Positions 22,040 through 30,077 of a DNA stretch of 30,502 nt are shown piece after piece. The stretch is taken from positions 1 to 30,502 of the IMG/VR virus record IMGVR_UViG_3300014913_000324; one strand, 5' to 3'. Position numbers and translations under genes: made by a program. This DNA is from a virus. Numbering within the stretch: the first letter of the stretch is position 1; each line of letters opens with the position of its first letter. The notes beneath the pieces were generated by a model. It was given only the letters and a program-made list of their open reading frames with translations, had not been told where the DNA came from and searched no databases.

Positions 22040-23404
22040 CTATTTCCATGTCCCAAAGTAATCACCCAGGGAAAGGACAAATATATAATATGGCAACATG
22101 ATACCAGCAGAGATTCCTATACCGTAGGGCATGAACCTACCAAAGGTTATACGATCCTCGGGGTCGTTATCTTTAGTCTCGTTAAGTAGGATTACACCAG
22201 CGGTTGCCGCGGTGATGAGTGACGAACTACCAGCACAGATTCCAGATCCTAGAGCCCAGGCGGATACAGTTGATTGAGATATGTTGTGGACGATTGGAGA
22301 AGCAGCTGTGGCCCAACTTGCAGCTTCTGTTAGGAGTGTTCCAAAGTAGCTAATTAACACAATCACTGGAATAGCGGCGTTACTTGCTTCAAGTAGGGTT
22401 GCTAGTTGTGTACCCACCCCGATTGAGGAGTTGGCCATTACTTGAGCTAGGACAAAGATTGAGATAAGTGTGGCGTATGTTTCCATGCCTAGAGCGAATA
22501 GTGCTTTACTCCTATGCTCGGCGTAATCTCCAAACACACTCACAATGATTCCCAGCGATGCTAGAACCAACTCGTAAGAGGGAAAGAAGAGCGACCCACC
22601 CACTCCTATAATCAGACCCAGCAGGCCAAACCCTGCAAGCCTCTTGTCAATTATTGTATTGCGCTTCCTTGACCTAAACTCCACCATAGAGTAAGCAATA
22701 GAGGCTCTGTCTAGTGCCTTATCTTTTCTCTTCCCCATAGTTCTTTTAACAATGAAGGTGATTAGGGTGGTGAGAATCAAAACCAATCCAAGATTAACCC
22801 ATAATATCTGGGTGAAGAATTGGGAGTGAGTTAATCCCCAGGTTTGCGCCTCAATGATGTTTGGTGTGTCACCCCAGCGGGTACTAAACCCCCCCAGGTT
22901 AGAAGCTACCAAGGCTCCAGCTAGAACAGGTACGGGTGGTACTTTATAAGACTTACACAAAACAGTCACAATCGCAGCGGAGATAAGAATAGAGGTGGTG
23001 TTGTGGAGTGTTCCCGCAAAGAACCAAGTCATAAACATGGAGGCTGCTACCACCAAGAATACGTGGTCTATGTTGGTGTGTAGGGTCTTCTCTAGTTTTG
23101 ATCTTCCTCTAGCTGCTCTACCAATCTTCTCTCCTAGCCACATACCCACCTTATCCAAAGCATCACTACGAGCCAGCATATGAGACGGGACAGCAATGGC
23201 GGTGAATAGTACGGCGATGTTTGCAAACTCAGCGAAGCCGTGTTGTAGGGCCGTCAGTGATTCGTGTGGATCTACAAACCCAACCAAGATTAGTGATGCA
23301 AGGGCAGTAAGTGTCATTCCCACATCTGCTTTAAGCACCCCCCTTGTCATGAGGACAAAGTTGGTGAGGATTGTGAGAACCAACAGAATTGTTAGTGGGT
23401 TCAT
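22040..23404 (-). CDS. Ion-transporter-superfamily (ArsB/NhaD/SLC13-like) permease (454 aa)
   Basis: About eleven hydrophobic segments span the protein. The family signatures are 'VFLVVAASMFMTWFFAGTLH', 'PVLAGALVASNLGGFSTRWGDTPN' (cf. 'SNxGGxxTxxGDxPN' in NhaD, ArsB and citrate carriers) and, in the second half, 'ISYFGTLLTEAASWATAAS' and 'GSGICAGSSSLITAATAGVILL', the mirrored repeat. It would move an anion or exchange cations across the host inner membrane. It is coupled by ATGA to the HTH gene upstream. A complete carrier of this type inside a phage late region is unusual. Substrate cannot be read from sequence. Confidence 0.88.
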   Translation of the reverse strand: MNPLTILLVLTILTNFVLMTRGVLKADVGMTLTALASLILVGFVDPHESLTALQHGFAEFANIAVLFTAIAVPSHMLARSDALDKVGMWLGEKIGRAARGRSKLEKTLHTNIDHVFLVVAASMFMTWFFAGTLHNTTSILISAAIVTVLCKSYKVPPVPVLAGALVASNLGGFSTRWGDTPNIIEAQTWGLTHSQFFTQILWVNLGLVLILTTLITFIVKRTMGKRKDKALDRASIAYSMVEFRSRKRNTIIDKRLAGFGLLGLIIGVGGSLFFPSYELVLASLGIIVSVFGDYAEHRSKALFALGMETYATLISIFVLAQVMANSSIGVGTQLATLLEASNAAIPVIVLISYFGTLLTEAASWATAASPIVHNISQSTVSAWALGSGICAGSSSLITAATAGVILLNETKDNDPEDRITFGRFMPYGIGISAGIMLPYYIFVLSLGDYFGTWK

Positions 23405-26796: not shown

Positions 26797-26926
26797 TTTG
26801 TTTTTCAATAGCCCACTCTAGTAATTTAGCTCGTTGCTCAATTAGTCTACGGTCACTAACTTTCGCTAGTTTGTACTCGTTACGGAGGATTTGGAGTTGG
26901 GCTTCTAGGTTTTCGAGAGTTGGCAT
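26789..26926 (-). CDS. Small coiled-coil protein (45 aa)
   Basis: ATG at 26926 to TGA 26789. The product is a single amphipathic helix (MPTLENLEAQLQILRNEYKL then 'RRLIEQRAKLLEWAIEKQNA') with a Leu/Ile heptad pattern, so it probably forms a coiled coil. No clear ribosome site, which lowers confidence. First gene after the 214-base gap upstream. Confidence 0.5.
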   Translation of the reverse strand: MPTLENLEAQLQILRNEYKLAKVSDRRLIEQRAKLLEWAIEKQNA

Positions 26927-27034
26927 GGTGGTGTTAATTGTAACTGTTTAAAGAAAACGAAAGAAGATCAAGAACAACACGAAACAAGATATAGAAGAAA
27001 GAAAAGAAAAGCCCCTAAGGAAAAGAAACGTCCT

Positions 27035-27053
27035 CGGCTATGCCGCATAACCG
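27035..27053 (-). other. 8-bp hairpin in the 26927-27140 gap
   Basis: CGGTTATG-CGG-CATAGCCG on the minus strand forms an 8-bp stem with one G-U pair and a 3-base loop. It is followed on the RNA by a pyrimidine-rich tract (27030-26950). It could be a weak terminator after the HNH gene or a leader structure for the small-gene operon. The rest of the 214-base gap holds only the promoter-like pair noted next. Confidence 0.5.
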
Positions 27054-27092
27054 ACACAGCCCCACTAACCATCAAACGAGTCTGTTTCAGCT

Positions 27093-27120
27093 CCAATATT
27101 CTTTCAGTTTAGATTGTCAA
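27093..27120 (-). promoter_or_regulatory. Possible promoter with perfect TTGACA -35
   Basis: TTGACA (27120-27115) is followed after 16 bases by TATTGG (27098-27093) on the minus strand. The -35 is perfect and the -10 is poor (3 of 6). It lies ~20 bases past the HNH stop and ~165 bases before the next gene, a sensible place for a promoter of the small-gene run. Confidence 0.35.
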
Positions 27121-27140
27121 GGTTTCCCTCACCAGGCGAC

Positions 27141-27656
27141 TTAGCGCAAAGTATTTTGTACCAACTCGTCTGGGTAGAAACCTCTAATAAAATTAACATA
27201 TGCTTTTTGTGATTCCTTGAGAGACCTTGATTCATAAGAAAAGACTATCTTTTTGTCTTTGACCAGCTTTGCTCTCCATGTTTTGTCTCTTTTGTGAAAC
27301 GTCAAACCCCGATAACCACTCATGTTGTTCTTTTGTTTTTTACGATACCAGTTGTTTAAAGAATAGGAACACCACCTCAAATTATCAACAGAATTATTTT
27401 GCTTGTTCATGTCTATGTGGTCTATTGTAGGAAGATTGTTTGGATTGGGTAAGTAAGTTAAAGCAACCACCCGATGTATTGACTTGGTTATAGTACTGCC
27501 CAACCCAGAGCTGAAACCAGTGATTAAATAACCACCGTCGTTTTTAGAACCATTAAGAAACTTGTTTGTCTTAGTGTTGAACACCTCTCCAAGAGAAGAA
27601 ACTAAGTAGGTTGGTGCTAGTGGAAATTCAGACCAGTATTCGTTTGTTTTTGTCAT
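27141..27656 (-). CDS. NUMOD4/HNH/AP2-type homing endonuclease (171 aa)
   Basis: Start chosen at ATG 27656 (MTKTNEYW), which overlaps the preceding micro-gene stop as ATGA. 'EYWSEFPLAPTYLVSSLGEVFNTK' is a NUMOD4 motif. 'SIHRVVALTYLPNPNNLPTI' with 'DHIDMNKQNNSVDNLRWCS' is the HNH_3 core. 'SGYRGLTFHKRDKTWRAKL' followed by a long helix is an AP2-like DNA-binding domain. This is a complete homing enzyme. It lies directly after the structured RNA region, and homing genes often target conserved RNA genes. Confidence 0.92.
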   Translation of the reverse strand: MTKTNEYWSEFPLAPTYLVSSLGEVFNTKTNKFLNGSKNDGGYLITGFSSGLGSTITKSIHRVVALTYLPNPNNLPTIDHIDMNKQNNSVDNLRWCSYSLNNWYRKKQKNNMSGYRGLTFHKRDKTWRAKLVKDKKIVFSYESRSLKESQKAYVNFIRGFYPDELVQNTLR

Positions 27657-27793
27657 AAATAAAAAAGAACACCACACGGGTGTCCTGCTTTTGTCTTGGT
27701 ATCTCTTAGAGATAGAAACATATCAAACCCAAGCTTGGGGCAGTCTTGTGAGTGCTTGAATCGTTCACCGCAATATTTACACTTGTTTTCCAT
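27653..27793 (-). CDS. Zinc-knuckle micro-protein (46 aa)
   Basis: ATG at 27793 has an AAGGA ribosome site, and the stop overlaps the HNH start as ATGA. The product begins 'MENKCKYCGERFKHSQDCPK', a C-x2-C...H-x3-C zinc knuckle of the retroviral or zinc-ribbon type, with a neutral helical tail. Its distal part contains a terminator-like hairpin. It may bind RNA, which is notable because it is the first gene after the structured RNA region. Expression is inferred. Confidence 0.6.
   Translation of the reverse strand: MENKCKYCGERFKHSQDCPKLGFDMFLSLRDTKTKAGHPCGVLFYL
27661..27685 (-). terminator. Terminator-like hairpin with six T residues
   Basis: GGACACC-CGTGT-GGTGTTC forms a 7-bp stem directly followed by TTTTTT on the minus strand, a good intrinsic terminator shape. 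It lies inside the 3' end of the zinc-knuckle ORF, so it would end the transcript of the structured region and that ORF just before the homing endonuclease gene. Confidence 0.65.
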
Positions 27794-27815
27794 TTATTCC
27801 TTATTAGTTAATCTC

Positions 27816-27948
27816 TGACAGGACGAGGTTGGGTTTGATACCAACAACGAGTTTACCCTGCGTTCAGTCACCCCGCTTCATAACCACAAACTCAGTACGC
27901 AACGGCTTGTGGCCTTATGGCCTTTATCTTTGGCTACTCGTCCTGTCA
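27816..27948 (-). ncRNA. tRNA-like element A with extended anticodon arm
   Basis: A 12-bp perfect inverted repeat (TGACAGGACGAG at 27948-27937, complement at 27827-27816) closes the unit. Inside, in tRNA order: 'TA' then a D-arm GCC-AAAGATAAA-GGC; an extended arm CATAA-(GG)-CCACAA / TTGTGG-TTATG with a 17-base loop where the anticodon arm should be; a ~33-base variable region; a T-stem GTTGG/CCAAC with loop UAUCAAAC (one base longer than UUCAAAC); then directly the acceptor strand CTCGTCC. The last base and following GUC are not CCA. Not an ordinary tRNA; a tRNA-like RNA or a tRNA with an intron-like expansion. Confidence 0.5.
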
Positions 27949-27972
27949 ACTATTAACTTGTTAAAATACTAT

Positions 27973-28141
27973 TTGGAGAAGGCAAGGATTTGCCGAGACT
28001 CCCAACGAGGTGTTTGACGTTATCGCGCTCCCATTGATTGCAACTCGTATAGTCACCTTGCATGGAGGGCTTAGAGTCTAATCCAGCACTTTCCAACCTT
28101 TAGACTATGGCTTGCGTCTACCTATTCCGCCACTTCTCCAA
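27973..28141 (-). ncRNA. tRNA-Leu-like element B with interrupted T-arm
   Basis: The 5' end reads GGAGAAG then TGGCGGAATAGGTAGACGC, which is the acceptor strand, U8 and complete D-arm of a bacterial tRNA-Leu, including the G18-G19 pair. The 3' end CTTCTCC pairs with it (9 bp with flanks). The two T-stem halves GCAAGG (28061-28056) and CCTTGC (27987-27982) are present, the latter adjacent to the acceptor, but ~68 bases apart. If the ~62 bases between U (28055) and CAAAU (27992-27988) were removed, a near-normal T-loop would result. The anticodon position has AGTCTAA/TTAGACT with an 18-base loop. Confidence 0.5.
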
Positions 28142-28162
28142 GTAATTTTCTATTTGTTAAAT

Positions 28163-28374
28163 ATTTAAGAGTCGGAACCTGTAAACTCATCAGCCCCACC
28201 GCTCATGCTGTTTGGTTGTTGTTCTATTTCGCTACCTTTTGGGAAGCTATCCCATATTCTAACGTAACTCCTGGCTAGCAACAGGTTTACAGTAAACAAC
28301 TGGGTGTCTAATTTAATCTGTTAATTCAGGTTCCCTCGGCAATTACTCCGATTCGCAGATTCCAATTCTTAAAT
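28163..28374 (-). ncRNA. Structured element C
   Basis: The unit is closed by ATTTAAGA/TCTTAAAT (8 bp). Inside, GGAACCTG (28334-28327) pairs with CAGGTTCC (28181-28174), 8 perfect bp across ~145 bases. Local hairpins are CGG-CCG near 28345, GTTTA-CTG-TAAAC, CCTG-CAGG and TGGGA-TCCCA. The order of nested helices suggests a multi-branched RNA fold. No tRNA D-arm or T-loop is recognisable here. The pairings are seen; the fold and function are inferred. Confidence 0.45.
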
Positions 28375-28391
28375 CTTTAACTTTAATGTAC

Positions 28392-28418
28392 AAAAAAATC
28401 GCTCTTCGGAGGGGGCGA
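28392..28418 (-). terminator. Possible terminator inside the structured region
   Basis: TCGC-(CCCC)-TC-CGAA-GAGCGA followed by seven T residues on the minus strand. The stem is six base pairs interrupted by a 4-base C bulge, with a CGAA tetraloop. The U-run is good, the stem is modest. It would separate the upstream part (28419-28608) from elements C, B and A. Confidence 0.4.
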
Positions 28419-28608
28419 CAAGGGCTGGAACAACCCAACCCACTCCAAAAAACGATCTTTTGTTCCAATTTATGTCTAACTATTTATCCCAAATTCTCAC
28501 TCACCTGTCAATCCCTAAATTCCACCAATGAAGTCTAAGTCAAGAGAACCACTCTTCGCAGCGTTGGGTCTAAGCATATAGAGATGGTTAGACTGTATTA
28601 CTCGCCAA

Positions 28609-28953
28609 TTAACTACAGGTTACTTTCAGATCATTGGTGGATGTTAAGGATCTACCTAAGTATAACTCCATTATTATCCTAGATGTGTCAACTGAAACGG
28701 GGTTCTCTTCTTCCATGACGAGACAGTCCATCATCATCTGTTGATAGACCTCTGGCTCTGTCCCTGTAAGACTCATGAGGCTGCACCATTCCCCCCAGAA
28801 TCGCTCTGTTTGTTCTCCTCGCTCCTGGTGGGCTAGGAAGTCTTGCATAGCTCTTTGTGATTCTTCTGCATCGGCGGTGTAAACCTCCCACGCTTCAAAA
28901 GGGATCTCTTGTCCATTTCGCTCATAGTCTAGTATGTGTTTTTCTTTATTCAT
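28609..28953 (-). CDS. Acidic hypothetical protein (114 aa)
   Basis: Residues ~1-60 are helical and acidic ('WEVYTADAEESQRAMQDFLA'), then 'FWGEWCSLMSLTGTEPEVYQQMMMDCLVMEEE' and a short C-terminal tail. It has three Cys without zinc spacing and no membrane segment. The ATG is coupled by ATGA to the 35-residue gene upstream. Not recognised; it is the last protein gene before the structured RNA region. Confidence 0.65.
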   Translation of the reverse strand: MNKEKHILDYERNGQEIPFEAWEVYTADAEESQRAMQDFLAHQERGEQTERFWGEWCSLMSLTGTEPEVYQQMMMDCLVMEEENPVSVDTSRIIMELYLGRSLTSTNDLKVTCS

Positions 28954-29057
28954 TTGGCCTCCATTTGTTCAATAGCATCTTTTTCTATCTGTTCCAACAT
29001 TTCCTCACGGCTATCAAAATCATCTTCCTTGTATTCTCCCAAGTTGATTGTATTCAT
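28950..29057 (-). CDS. Acidic micro-protein (35 aa)
   Basis: ATG at 29057, coupled by ATGA overlaps at both ends, preceded by a GAGGAG ribosome site. The product (MNTINLGEYKEDDFDSREEM and 15 more) is an acidic helix. Function unknown. Confidence 0.55.
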   Translation of the reverse strand: MNTINLGEYKEDDFDSREEMLEQIEKDAIEQMEAK

Positions 29058-29212
29058 AATGACTCCTCGTATTTACTAACTTCTTTGTTTAATATTTCCA
29101 TAATAGCTCTAACATCATCTACCCCACCCTTGAGATCCCATATTACATCACCCTTATCTTCTGACTTCTCTACCATTATTCCTTCTATTCTGGCTATGGT
29201 TTTCTCTATCAT
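29054..29212 (-). CDS. Small acidic helical protein (52 aa)
   Basis: ATG at 29212 with a GGGAG ribosome site, one base after the phosphoesterase stop, ending in an ATGA overlap. Two amphipathic helices ('IEKTIARIEGIMVEKS', 'DDVRAIMEILNKEVSKY') suggest a dimer-forming adapter. Not recognised. Confidence 0.6.
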   Translation of the reverse strand: MIEKTIARIEGIMVEKSEDKGDVIWDLKGGVDDVRAIMEILNKEVSKYEESL

Positions 29213-29213
29213 A

Positions 29214-30077
29214 TTACTCCCTGTGTTCTTTGTTGGCGGTCAATATATCGTCATAGTATACGATGTGGTCTGAGTCTCGGTCTAGTCGTACGGCAGCACC
29301 GTACATCTGTTCTGGATCTTGCATCTTGAATCCCTTCTTGGCCAACCATCCGTCGGTGGGTTTGTAGGCTCCTAGTGCTACGTAGTGTGTCTGGTGAGTT
29401 CCGTCAAAGTTCTGCTGCCAGTCGGTAGAGTATCCCTTGCCGTGATTGTGTGCGCTTGCAATAACATCTGCTCCCCTGAGTCCTCCAAACCTCTCTGCTC
29501 TAACCTGGGGATGTGTTTTGTTATACATTGAGTGGCCTGGTAGCTGGTGCGCTACTCCCACCTTATACTCTTGCGCTCCCACATTAGCTTTCACCTGAGT
29601 GACTCCAGCAGTTGCGTGTGCGCCGTATCTTTCCGAGGCTTCAGCAAGCATATCAAAGCCTGATTTTAACAACCAACCATCGTGATCGCCACGTACCACA
29701 AGAAGTAGTTTCTGGTAGCTGGCTAGGTAGTCCATGTAGGATCTGAAATACTCAATCTGTTCTGGGGTCTGCTCCATCTCCTCCATCTGTCCTGGATTCC
29801 AGTTCATATTATTGATCATGTCCCCGAGAAGAAAAACGAAAGAATTGGGAGTCTGCACAATTTCATCGGCCTCTTGTTCAAGCCTCTTGTAGTCGGTAGC
29901 AGGGTGTCCGATGTGGCCGTCTGCTATCAGGTTGATAACGATAGGGGCGAAGAAGTCATATTCTACATTCTGATATGGCTGGTTGACTACTTCCTGGCGG
30001 TCTTGGAATCTTTGTGACCAGTCATGAAAACTCCCCTGTTCGGGGAGAGGTGTTTTGTATACGACTTCTTTGCTCAT
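29214..30077 (-). CDS. Calcineurin-like metallophosphoesterase (287 aa)
   Basis: The five metal-binding motifs are in order: 'ADGHIGH' (Asp53, His55), 'LLGDM' (Asp86), 'RGDHDG' (130-134; the usual GNHD Asn is replaced by Asp), 'VAHQLPGH' (His177) and 'SAHNHGKG' (210-214). The fold is a two-metal phosphoesterase. Many phages encode such enzymes near DNA-repair genes, acting as nucleases or nucleotide phosphatases. Substrate is unknown. The GNHD-to-GDHD change affects a metal ligand position and is odd. An AGGAGGAAGA ribosome site precedes the ATG. Confidence 0.88.
   Translation of the reverse strand: MSKEVVYKTPLPEQGSFHDWSQRFQDRQEVVNQPYQNVEYDFFAPIVINLIADGHIGHPATDYKRLEQEADEIVQTPNSFVFLLGDMINNMNWNPGQMEEMEQTPEQIEYFRSYMDYLASYQKLLLVVRGDHDGWLLKSGFDMLAEASERYGAHATAGVTQVKANVGAQEYKVGVAHQLPGHSMYNKTHPQVRAERFGGLRGADVIASAHNHGKGYSTDWQQNFDGTHQTHYVALGAYKPTDGWLAKKGFKMQDPEQMYGAAVRLDRDSDHIVYYDDILTANKEHRE

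Follow-up and report, generated by a model that had tools for sequence, protein, structure and literature searches.

A large, apparently uncatalogued phage RNA family with the acceptor, D and T arms of a tRNA and no anticodon arm

What does a phage encode in 815 bases that hold no gene? The stretch in question, 27794-28608, lies in a 30,502-base IMG/VR fragment, hereafter the window, from a phage with an SU10-type portal and terminase large subunit. The minus strand is the coding strand here and holds practically all long ORFs. In transcription order, the 5' neighbours of the stretch are a metallophosphoesterase-like gene and a 114-aa ORF that matches no known family and for which a search for relatives found none; on its 3' side follow a 46-aa ORF and a NUMOD4/HNH endonuclease gene, with a lysozyme-like gene and the terminase genes further downstream. 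The original prediction had read the stretch as one large ornate RNA of three units, perhaps a GOLLD or ROOL RNA or a new class, with a zinc-knuckle ORF and a homing endonuclease behind it. That endonuclease is confirmed as an HNH enzyme; the 46-aa ORF before it gave no family match. Elsewhere in the window (22040-23404, minus strand), a 454-aa protein strongly matches the citrate transporter family CitMHS (71 bits), here in a phage genome.

The gene-free stretch and its folded units

The stretch is gene-free, as had been claimed, and no ORF within it exceeds 62 aa on either strand. For its minus strand the folding energy is -245 kcal/mol, where dinucleotide shuffles give -213 ± 7 (z -4.68) and none of 20 is as good; the plus strand shows a weaker excess (z -2.45). 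The RNA lies on the minus strand, which the original prediction left unstated. Resolved by part (Table 1), units A and C are exceptional in folding energy, whereas unit B and the remainder at 28382-28608 are not. The evidence for unit B, which is not unusually stable, is conservation and covariation.

All three inverted repeats that had been proposed to close the units exist: a 12-bp repeat, TGACAGGACGAG/CTCGTCCTGTCA, at 27816-27827 and 27937-27948 (unit A); a 9-bp repeat, TTGGAGAAG/CTTCTCCAA, that encloses unit B; and an 8-bp repeat, GGAACCTG/CAGGTTCC, whose arms lie 145 nt apart. The last is probably not the true closing helix of unit C, because a longer, 26-nt pair with 85% complementarity (28156-28181 with 28356-28381) is a rival for the same arm, and it is the pair found in the minimum-energy fold.

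At gathering score no Rfam model matched the window, nor did any match 26900-29300 at E up to 5, and ARAGORN, with introns allowed, found no tRNA in the window; it was also negative on relatives. The same Rfam library picks up ROOL in Listeria phage P100 at 86 bits. On these searches GOLLD, ROOL, tmRNA, group I intron and tRNA were rejected as identities, and the suggested GOLLD or ROOL membership is unsupported. The broader idea of a structured RNA in a phage that might represent a new class was right, and homologues carry compensatory changes. Instead of a single large RNA, we find separately closed units, and the region is best explained as a minus-strand array of structured RNAs that are read along with the neighbouring genes.

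Table 1. Features of the gene-free stretch (window coordinates; z, folding energy relative to shuffles)
Feature	Positions	Strand	Details
Unit A, structured RNA of tRNA-like layout	27816-27948	-	z -5.25; acceptor GGACGAG/CTCGTCC; D-like arm 27920-27936; T-like arm 27828-27845
Unit B, member of the tRNA-like family (inserted form)	27975-28139	-	z -1.32; R1 model 55.4 bits, E 1.1e-12; collinear blocks in relatives; architecture common to 54 viral stretches
Unit B acceptor stem, 7 bp	28133-28139	-	5' strand GGAGAAG; partner CTTCTCC at 27975-27981; covaries
Unit B D arm	28114-28130	-	GCGGAATAGGTAGACGC; preceded by TG at 28131-28132; near tRNA-Leu sequence
Unit B variable domain	28063-28113	-	Replaces the anticodon arm; hypervariable among relatives; short forms have no anticodon arm
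Unit B T stem, 6 bp	28057-28062	-	5' strand GCAAGG; partner CCTTGC at 27982-27987; conserved block 28064-28043; T stem covaries in short forms
Inserted T-loop arm of unit B	27994-28048	-	Closed by CGAG 28045-28048 and CTCG 27994-27997
Unit C, structured RNA	28156-28381	-	z -4.58; inverted repeat; closed by 26-nt helix, 85% complementary
5' part of the gene-free stretch	28382-28608	-	z -1.85; long hairpin ending in a T run; not claimed for the family

A family built on tRNA arms

Phages whose portal proteins share 64-66% identity with that of the window provided the entry point to relatives. Comparison of the RNA region with their records gave three collinear short matches, all within unit B, one of them the identical 22-nt block at 28064-28043. 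A 17-mer from the conserved block, AAGGTGACTATACGAGT, occurs in 54 stretches of the viral collection and in only 3 of the bacterial and archaeal genome collection. The flanks of these 54 stretches share one architecture: an acceptor strand, GUGGCGGAAUAGGUAGACGC, a hypervariable part, AUGCAAGGUGACUAUACGAGU, a variable part, CUCG(U/G)CAAAUCCUUGC and the acceptor complement. A few of the contigs have no recognisable acceptor, and at least 6 of 7 pairs were required for the acceptor statistics of this form (45 sequences). A separate search with the 3' motif alone (CTCGKCAAATCCTTGCC) returned 51 stretches, 28 of them already known; about half of the 23 others have a variant 5' motif, and most of those also have the D arm.

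The D arm of unit B resembles that of one particular tRNA. In RNA letters it reads GCGGAAUAGGUAGACGC, almost identical to the D arm of tRNA-Leu, with U8-G9 kept; sequence comparison of the arm and the preceding TG gives 19 of 20 bases as in bacterial tRNA-Leu, whose D-arm sequence is generally known and was also seen in one locus examined (L220). It is conserved in loci that were retrieved by a different motif. When a query joining the D arm to the other motifs was run on known phages, it revealed unannotated copies in the Lactobacillus phages Lenus and phiJL-1, Listeria phage B025, Bacillus phage phi3T and Enterococcus phage phiSHEF16, and further ones in VEsP-1, BtpYZU01, zrk29-2, EG-TP1, KLEB27-1, WC29P3 and R24.2; a second query added a copy in SPP1, between head genes 9 and 11. 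The unannotated copies include those in SPP1, phi3T and phages of Listeria, Enterococcus, Lactobacillus and Weissella. Each of the 12 copies in the first two groups was a D-arm match, and each has the plain T loop UGCAAAU. Those D-arm matches with AATTGG that we examined were tRNA-Leu or ambiguous. Just downstream of the SPP1 element, at about 2620-2675 of L221 (SPP1), lies a second short tRNA-like sequence, with a T-arm-like CGGGTTCAATTCCCG within ACGGAC...GTCCGT.

The family comes in two forms. The short form has the T loop UGCAAAU on a 6-bp T stem, and a gapped pattern for it matches at least 120 viral stretches; counting copies found by other routes, there are at least 119 distinct short-form sequences. 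Acceptor pairing was no part of the pattern, so this set was not selected for it, and all 7 acceptor pairs form in 101 of the 119, with 6 pairs in another 12 (113 with 6 or 7). The search did fix the D arm and GGTGCAAATCC, and because it fixed them, their conservation within the short-form set is not evidence; we took that evidence from the inserted forms, which were found by another motif, and from the known phages found by the D arm. In the inserted form, which the window carries, sequence comparison shows the short-form loop with an arm put in after GGU or GGUG, which splits it into GGUGACUAUACGAG...CUCG. The CGAG/CTCG closing this arm is present in nearly all inserted forms, too invariant for a covariation test, and the inserted arm was recovered from the 3' motif alone. 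An early reading of the insertion as an intron in the T loop was dropped, there being no sign of splicing. A covariance model, R1, built from short forms only, matches 41 of 47 records, mostly of the inserted form, as well as unit B of the window, and the two forms are therefore one family.

Covariation is decisive that this altered fold is under selection. When 48 short forms are aligned, 98.7% of the cells are paired; shuffled partners give 72.7%, and a shift of one to three columns gives 36-42%. Cells in which both sides have changed number 203 against 56. The first six acceptor pairs are 95-100% paired among 65 non-redundant short forms (39-53% shuffled) and 98-100% among 41 non-redundant inserted forms (39-56% shuffled), and the compensatory changes sought in the closing stem of unit B are found, its pairs covarying across the 41 inserted-form sequences with distinct acceptors. 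Short forms also show covariation in the T stem and, only weakly, in the D stem. Within the family, then, the acceptor and T stems are supported by covariation, and the D arm by sequence together with weak covariation.

The anticodon arm is what has gone. Its canonical version is found in 0 of 85 non-redundant short forms (0% against 3% shuffled), and a hypervariable yet structured domain of 40-140 nt stands there. A helix occupies the place of the arm, its 3' strand stopping exactly 2 bases short of the T stem; a 6-nt partner for it is present in 43.5% of sequences when sought in their own sequence and in 4.9% when sought in others, and the signal peaks sharply at that offset. A general H-type pseudoknot in this domain is unsupported, with a 5-bp helix in 43% of own sequences against 38% in the cross-control; an earlier score against shuffles looked better because the real P3 helix was counted in. 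Unit B belongs to a large phage RNA family with the acceptor, D and T arms of a tRNA and without its anticodon arm, and it is most likely descended from tRNA-Leu, of which the acceptor, U8-G9, the D arm and the T stem have been kept.

For the other two units of the window no relatives were found. Unit A has a tRNA-like layout: a 7-bp acceptor, UA, a 3-bp D-like arm and a 5-bp T-like arm with an 8-nt loop. R1 scores it at 6.6 bits (E 0.21) over its full length, and a search through its D-arm and T-arm motifs found no relatives. Apart from its strong fold, unit C is an orphan, with no relatives by blastn among the loci compared and no R1 match within 28156-28381 even in an unfiltered search at E up to 10. 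In a related phage (G002), the relative of unit B lies inside a similarly dense array of structured units (L021 600-1480, z -6.99), so that the arrangement, if not the sequence, recurs. One neighbouring unit in that array also carries the T-loop-like UGCAAAU.

The two forms in their genomic surroundings

Short and inserted forms differ in how they end. The terminal helix of short forms stops at 7-9 bp, about as long as a tRNA acceptor, whereas in inserted forms pairing continues at about 0.7-0.9 over some 14 more positions, giving a closing stem of more than 15 bp. Directly after the acceptor stem, A is found in only about 59%, and the next bases are not CCA, which could be added after transcription.

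Elements lie mostly on the strand of their neighbours, and 38 of 41 downstream neighbours of inserted forms are co-oriented. Short forms often sit next to late transcription regulators (phrog_36 matches 23 and phrog_248 18 of 140 neighbouring proteins, some of them annotated ArpU), and HNH endonucleases and terminase small subunits are also frequent; inserted forms are flanked by, among others, HNH and NinG endonucleases and RNA ligases. The window, whose array precedes an HNH gene and lies upstream of the terminase, resembles this family context. Scores for a promoter of the elements' own equal those of shuffled sequence, with none above chance. Terminator-like sites come after 18% of the short forms; in shuffled sequence the figure is 0%.

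Some copies lie between phage tRNA genes. A tRNA occurs within 600 nt, always on the same strand, of 16 of 85 short forms, against about 9 expected on a rough estimate from overall tRNA density. Only 3 of 45 inserted forms have one within that distance, and proximity to tRNAs is therefore not a general feature of the family. One contig filed under a Patescibacteria MAG (L084) has at least 23 tRNA genes with two inserted-form motifs between them, and may be a misbinned virus. Another record, IMGVR_UViG_3300028274_000006 (74,772 bases; L004, L010), has two portal genes and carries RNA elements that differ from each other, near 33.9 and 72.3 kb; it may be a chimeric assembly or else a dimer of related phages.

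What the RNA might do

We tentatively favour, at somewhat less than even confidence, a trans-acting tRNA mimic that would bind an acceptor-side tRNA factor and whose variable domain would be specific to the phage. Such an RNA would fold into a tRNA-like elbow and bind a host factor that reads the acceptor, D and T side and not the anticodon; candidates are RNase P, the tRNA 3'-end enzymes, LeuRS and a tRNA-modifying or tRNA-attacking defence enzyme. It could serve as a decoy or a scaffold, with the variable domain providing phage-specific binding. We prefer this reading because the features kept are those that acceptor-side tRNA factors read and the anticodon is the one lost; D and T arms that are kept while the rest is free, across many phage groups, are what would be expected if the tRNA-like face is recognised. 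The 7-9 bp stem of short forms suggests that they are excised from a longer transcript in a tRNA-like manner, whereas the inserted form, with its longer stem, more probably works as an unprocessed folded RNA. That long stem is not tRNA-like, which is a point against the mimic. The elbow, too, may not be standard, since T-loop position 55 is G in the short form, where normal tRNAs have U, and some members have lost one G of the D-loop GG pair.

The likeness to bacterial tRNA-Leu has its limits. The 7-bp acceptor stem, U8-G9, the D arm and the T arm are shared; the family differs in its absent anticodon arm, its 6-bp T stem, its UGCAAAU or arm-split T loop and its discriminator, which is not the fixed A73 followed by a 3' CCA of tRNA-Leu. 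Having A after the acceptor in only a little over half of cases speaks against leucylation as a general function. Like tmRNA (RF00023 and relatives), these RNAs join a tRNA-like end domain to a domain that is not tRNA; unlike tmRNA, they have a normal D stem, show nothing that suggests a tag reading frame and lack an Rfam match, and in phiSHEF16 the tmRNA call and the family element are at different places.

The main rival, which we consider rather unlikely, is punctuation in cis, in which the tRNA-like fold would be an RNase P/RNase Z cutting site that divides polycistronic late messages and the excised RNA would be inert. It fits the short form well, with its acceptor stem of tRNA length and its position within co-oriented operons beside late regulators, HNH and terminase genes, and it would account for the SPP1 copy between two head genes and for the lack of a promoter above chance. 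It would, however, leave the structured variable domain needless; RNase P is not expected to cut at the tRNA-like position of a stem longer than 15 bp; and copies also lie between tRNA genes.

Improbable, in our judgement, is a scaffold of the Y-RNA kind, in which a Ro/TROVE-type protein would bind a long closing helix and a tRNA-like module would dock a nuclease. Inserted forms share that general shape, and with the YrlA bacterial Y RNA (RF02553) the family has in common a long closing helix in the inserted form and the character of a non-coding tRNA mimic. The divergent copy in P100 (39.6 bits) also lies in the same tRNA cluster as gp165 (DUF2828/DUF7788), whose counterpart in a P100-like phage has been termed Rsr-like (PMC12282133). 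Yet TROVE (PF05731) was found in 0 of the 47 element-bearing records, which are partial, by a search that did match a control genome, and RF02553 exceeds its cut-off in 0 of the 47, the places it lists differing from the elements. One such place is in phiSHEF16 (L090, 45651-45773), where the model reaches 47 bits against a cut-off of 69, away from the element.

Nor do we give much credence to a self-assembling ornate RNA like GOLLD or ROOL, in which the array or its units would form an RNA-only multimer. The strong folds of units A and C would suit it, and such RNAs are phage-encoded, structured and often near tRNA islands (PMC12286853); ROOL and GOLLD are, however, about 0.5-0.9 kb with other folds, the window has no Rfam match to either, and family members are as small as about 91 nt. 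A decayed or intron-bearing tRNA-Leu gene without function, to which the near-tRNA-Leu sequence of the D arm might point, is scarcely credible given covariation that shows selection for an altered fold, the consistent loss of the canonical anticodon arm, the absence of an ARAGORN call with introns allowed in the window and the altered T loop in every one of the 12 known-phage copies sampled by the D arm.

Returning to the trans-acting mimic, a more specific version holds that phages of many hosts use a tRNA-Leu scaffold, its anticodon arm turned into an exchangeable domain that differs from phage to phage, to capture a host factor that binds tRNA and may be a defence enzyme. We regard this as possible and rather doubtful; if true, it would make the family a major overlooked class of phage non-coding RNA.

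RNAs that mimic tRNAs are already known as such. No family in Rfam 15 matches unit B of the window or the copies tested, the copies examined in phage records are unannotated, and we found no description of the family in the open full-text literature; an earlier account may exist elsewhere. The family is large and apparently uncatalogued. It is common in viral contigs, is present without annotation in the model phages SPP1, phi3T and Listeria B025, and is directly testable in B. subtilis; it would explain some of the annotation gaps in late operons and tRNA clusters. It also bears on why phages keep tRNA-like genes, as mimicry without an anticodon points to targets outside decoding.

Listeria phage P100 brings several of these elements together. 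Its divergent family member (L333 31404-31544, minus strand) has the T loop UGAAAAU and lies in a tRNA cluster that also holds a ROOL-like RNA (L333 29073-29624, minus strand), which scores just under the Rfam cut-off of 99.1, and the remote DUF2828 protein. Very strong unexplained transcription near tRNA genes has been described in a P100-like phage (PMC12282133), and, judging from its position, the ROOL-like RNA of P100 may be one of those highly transcribed unannotated regions.
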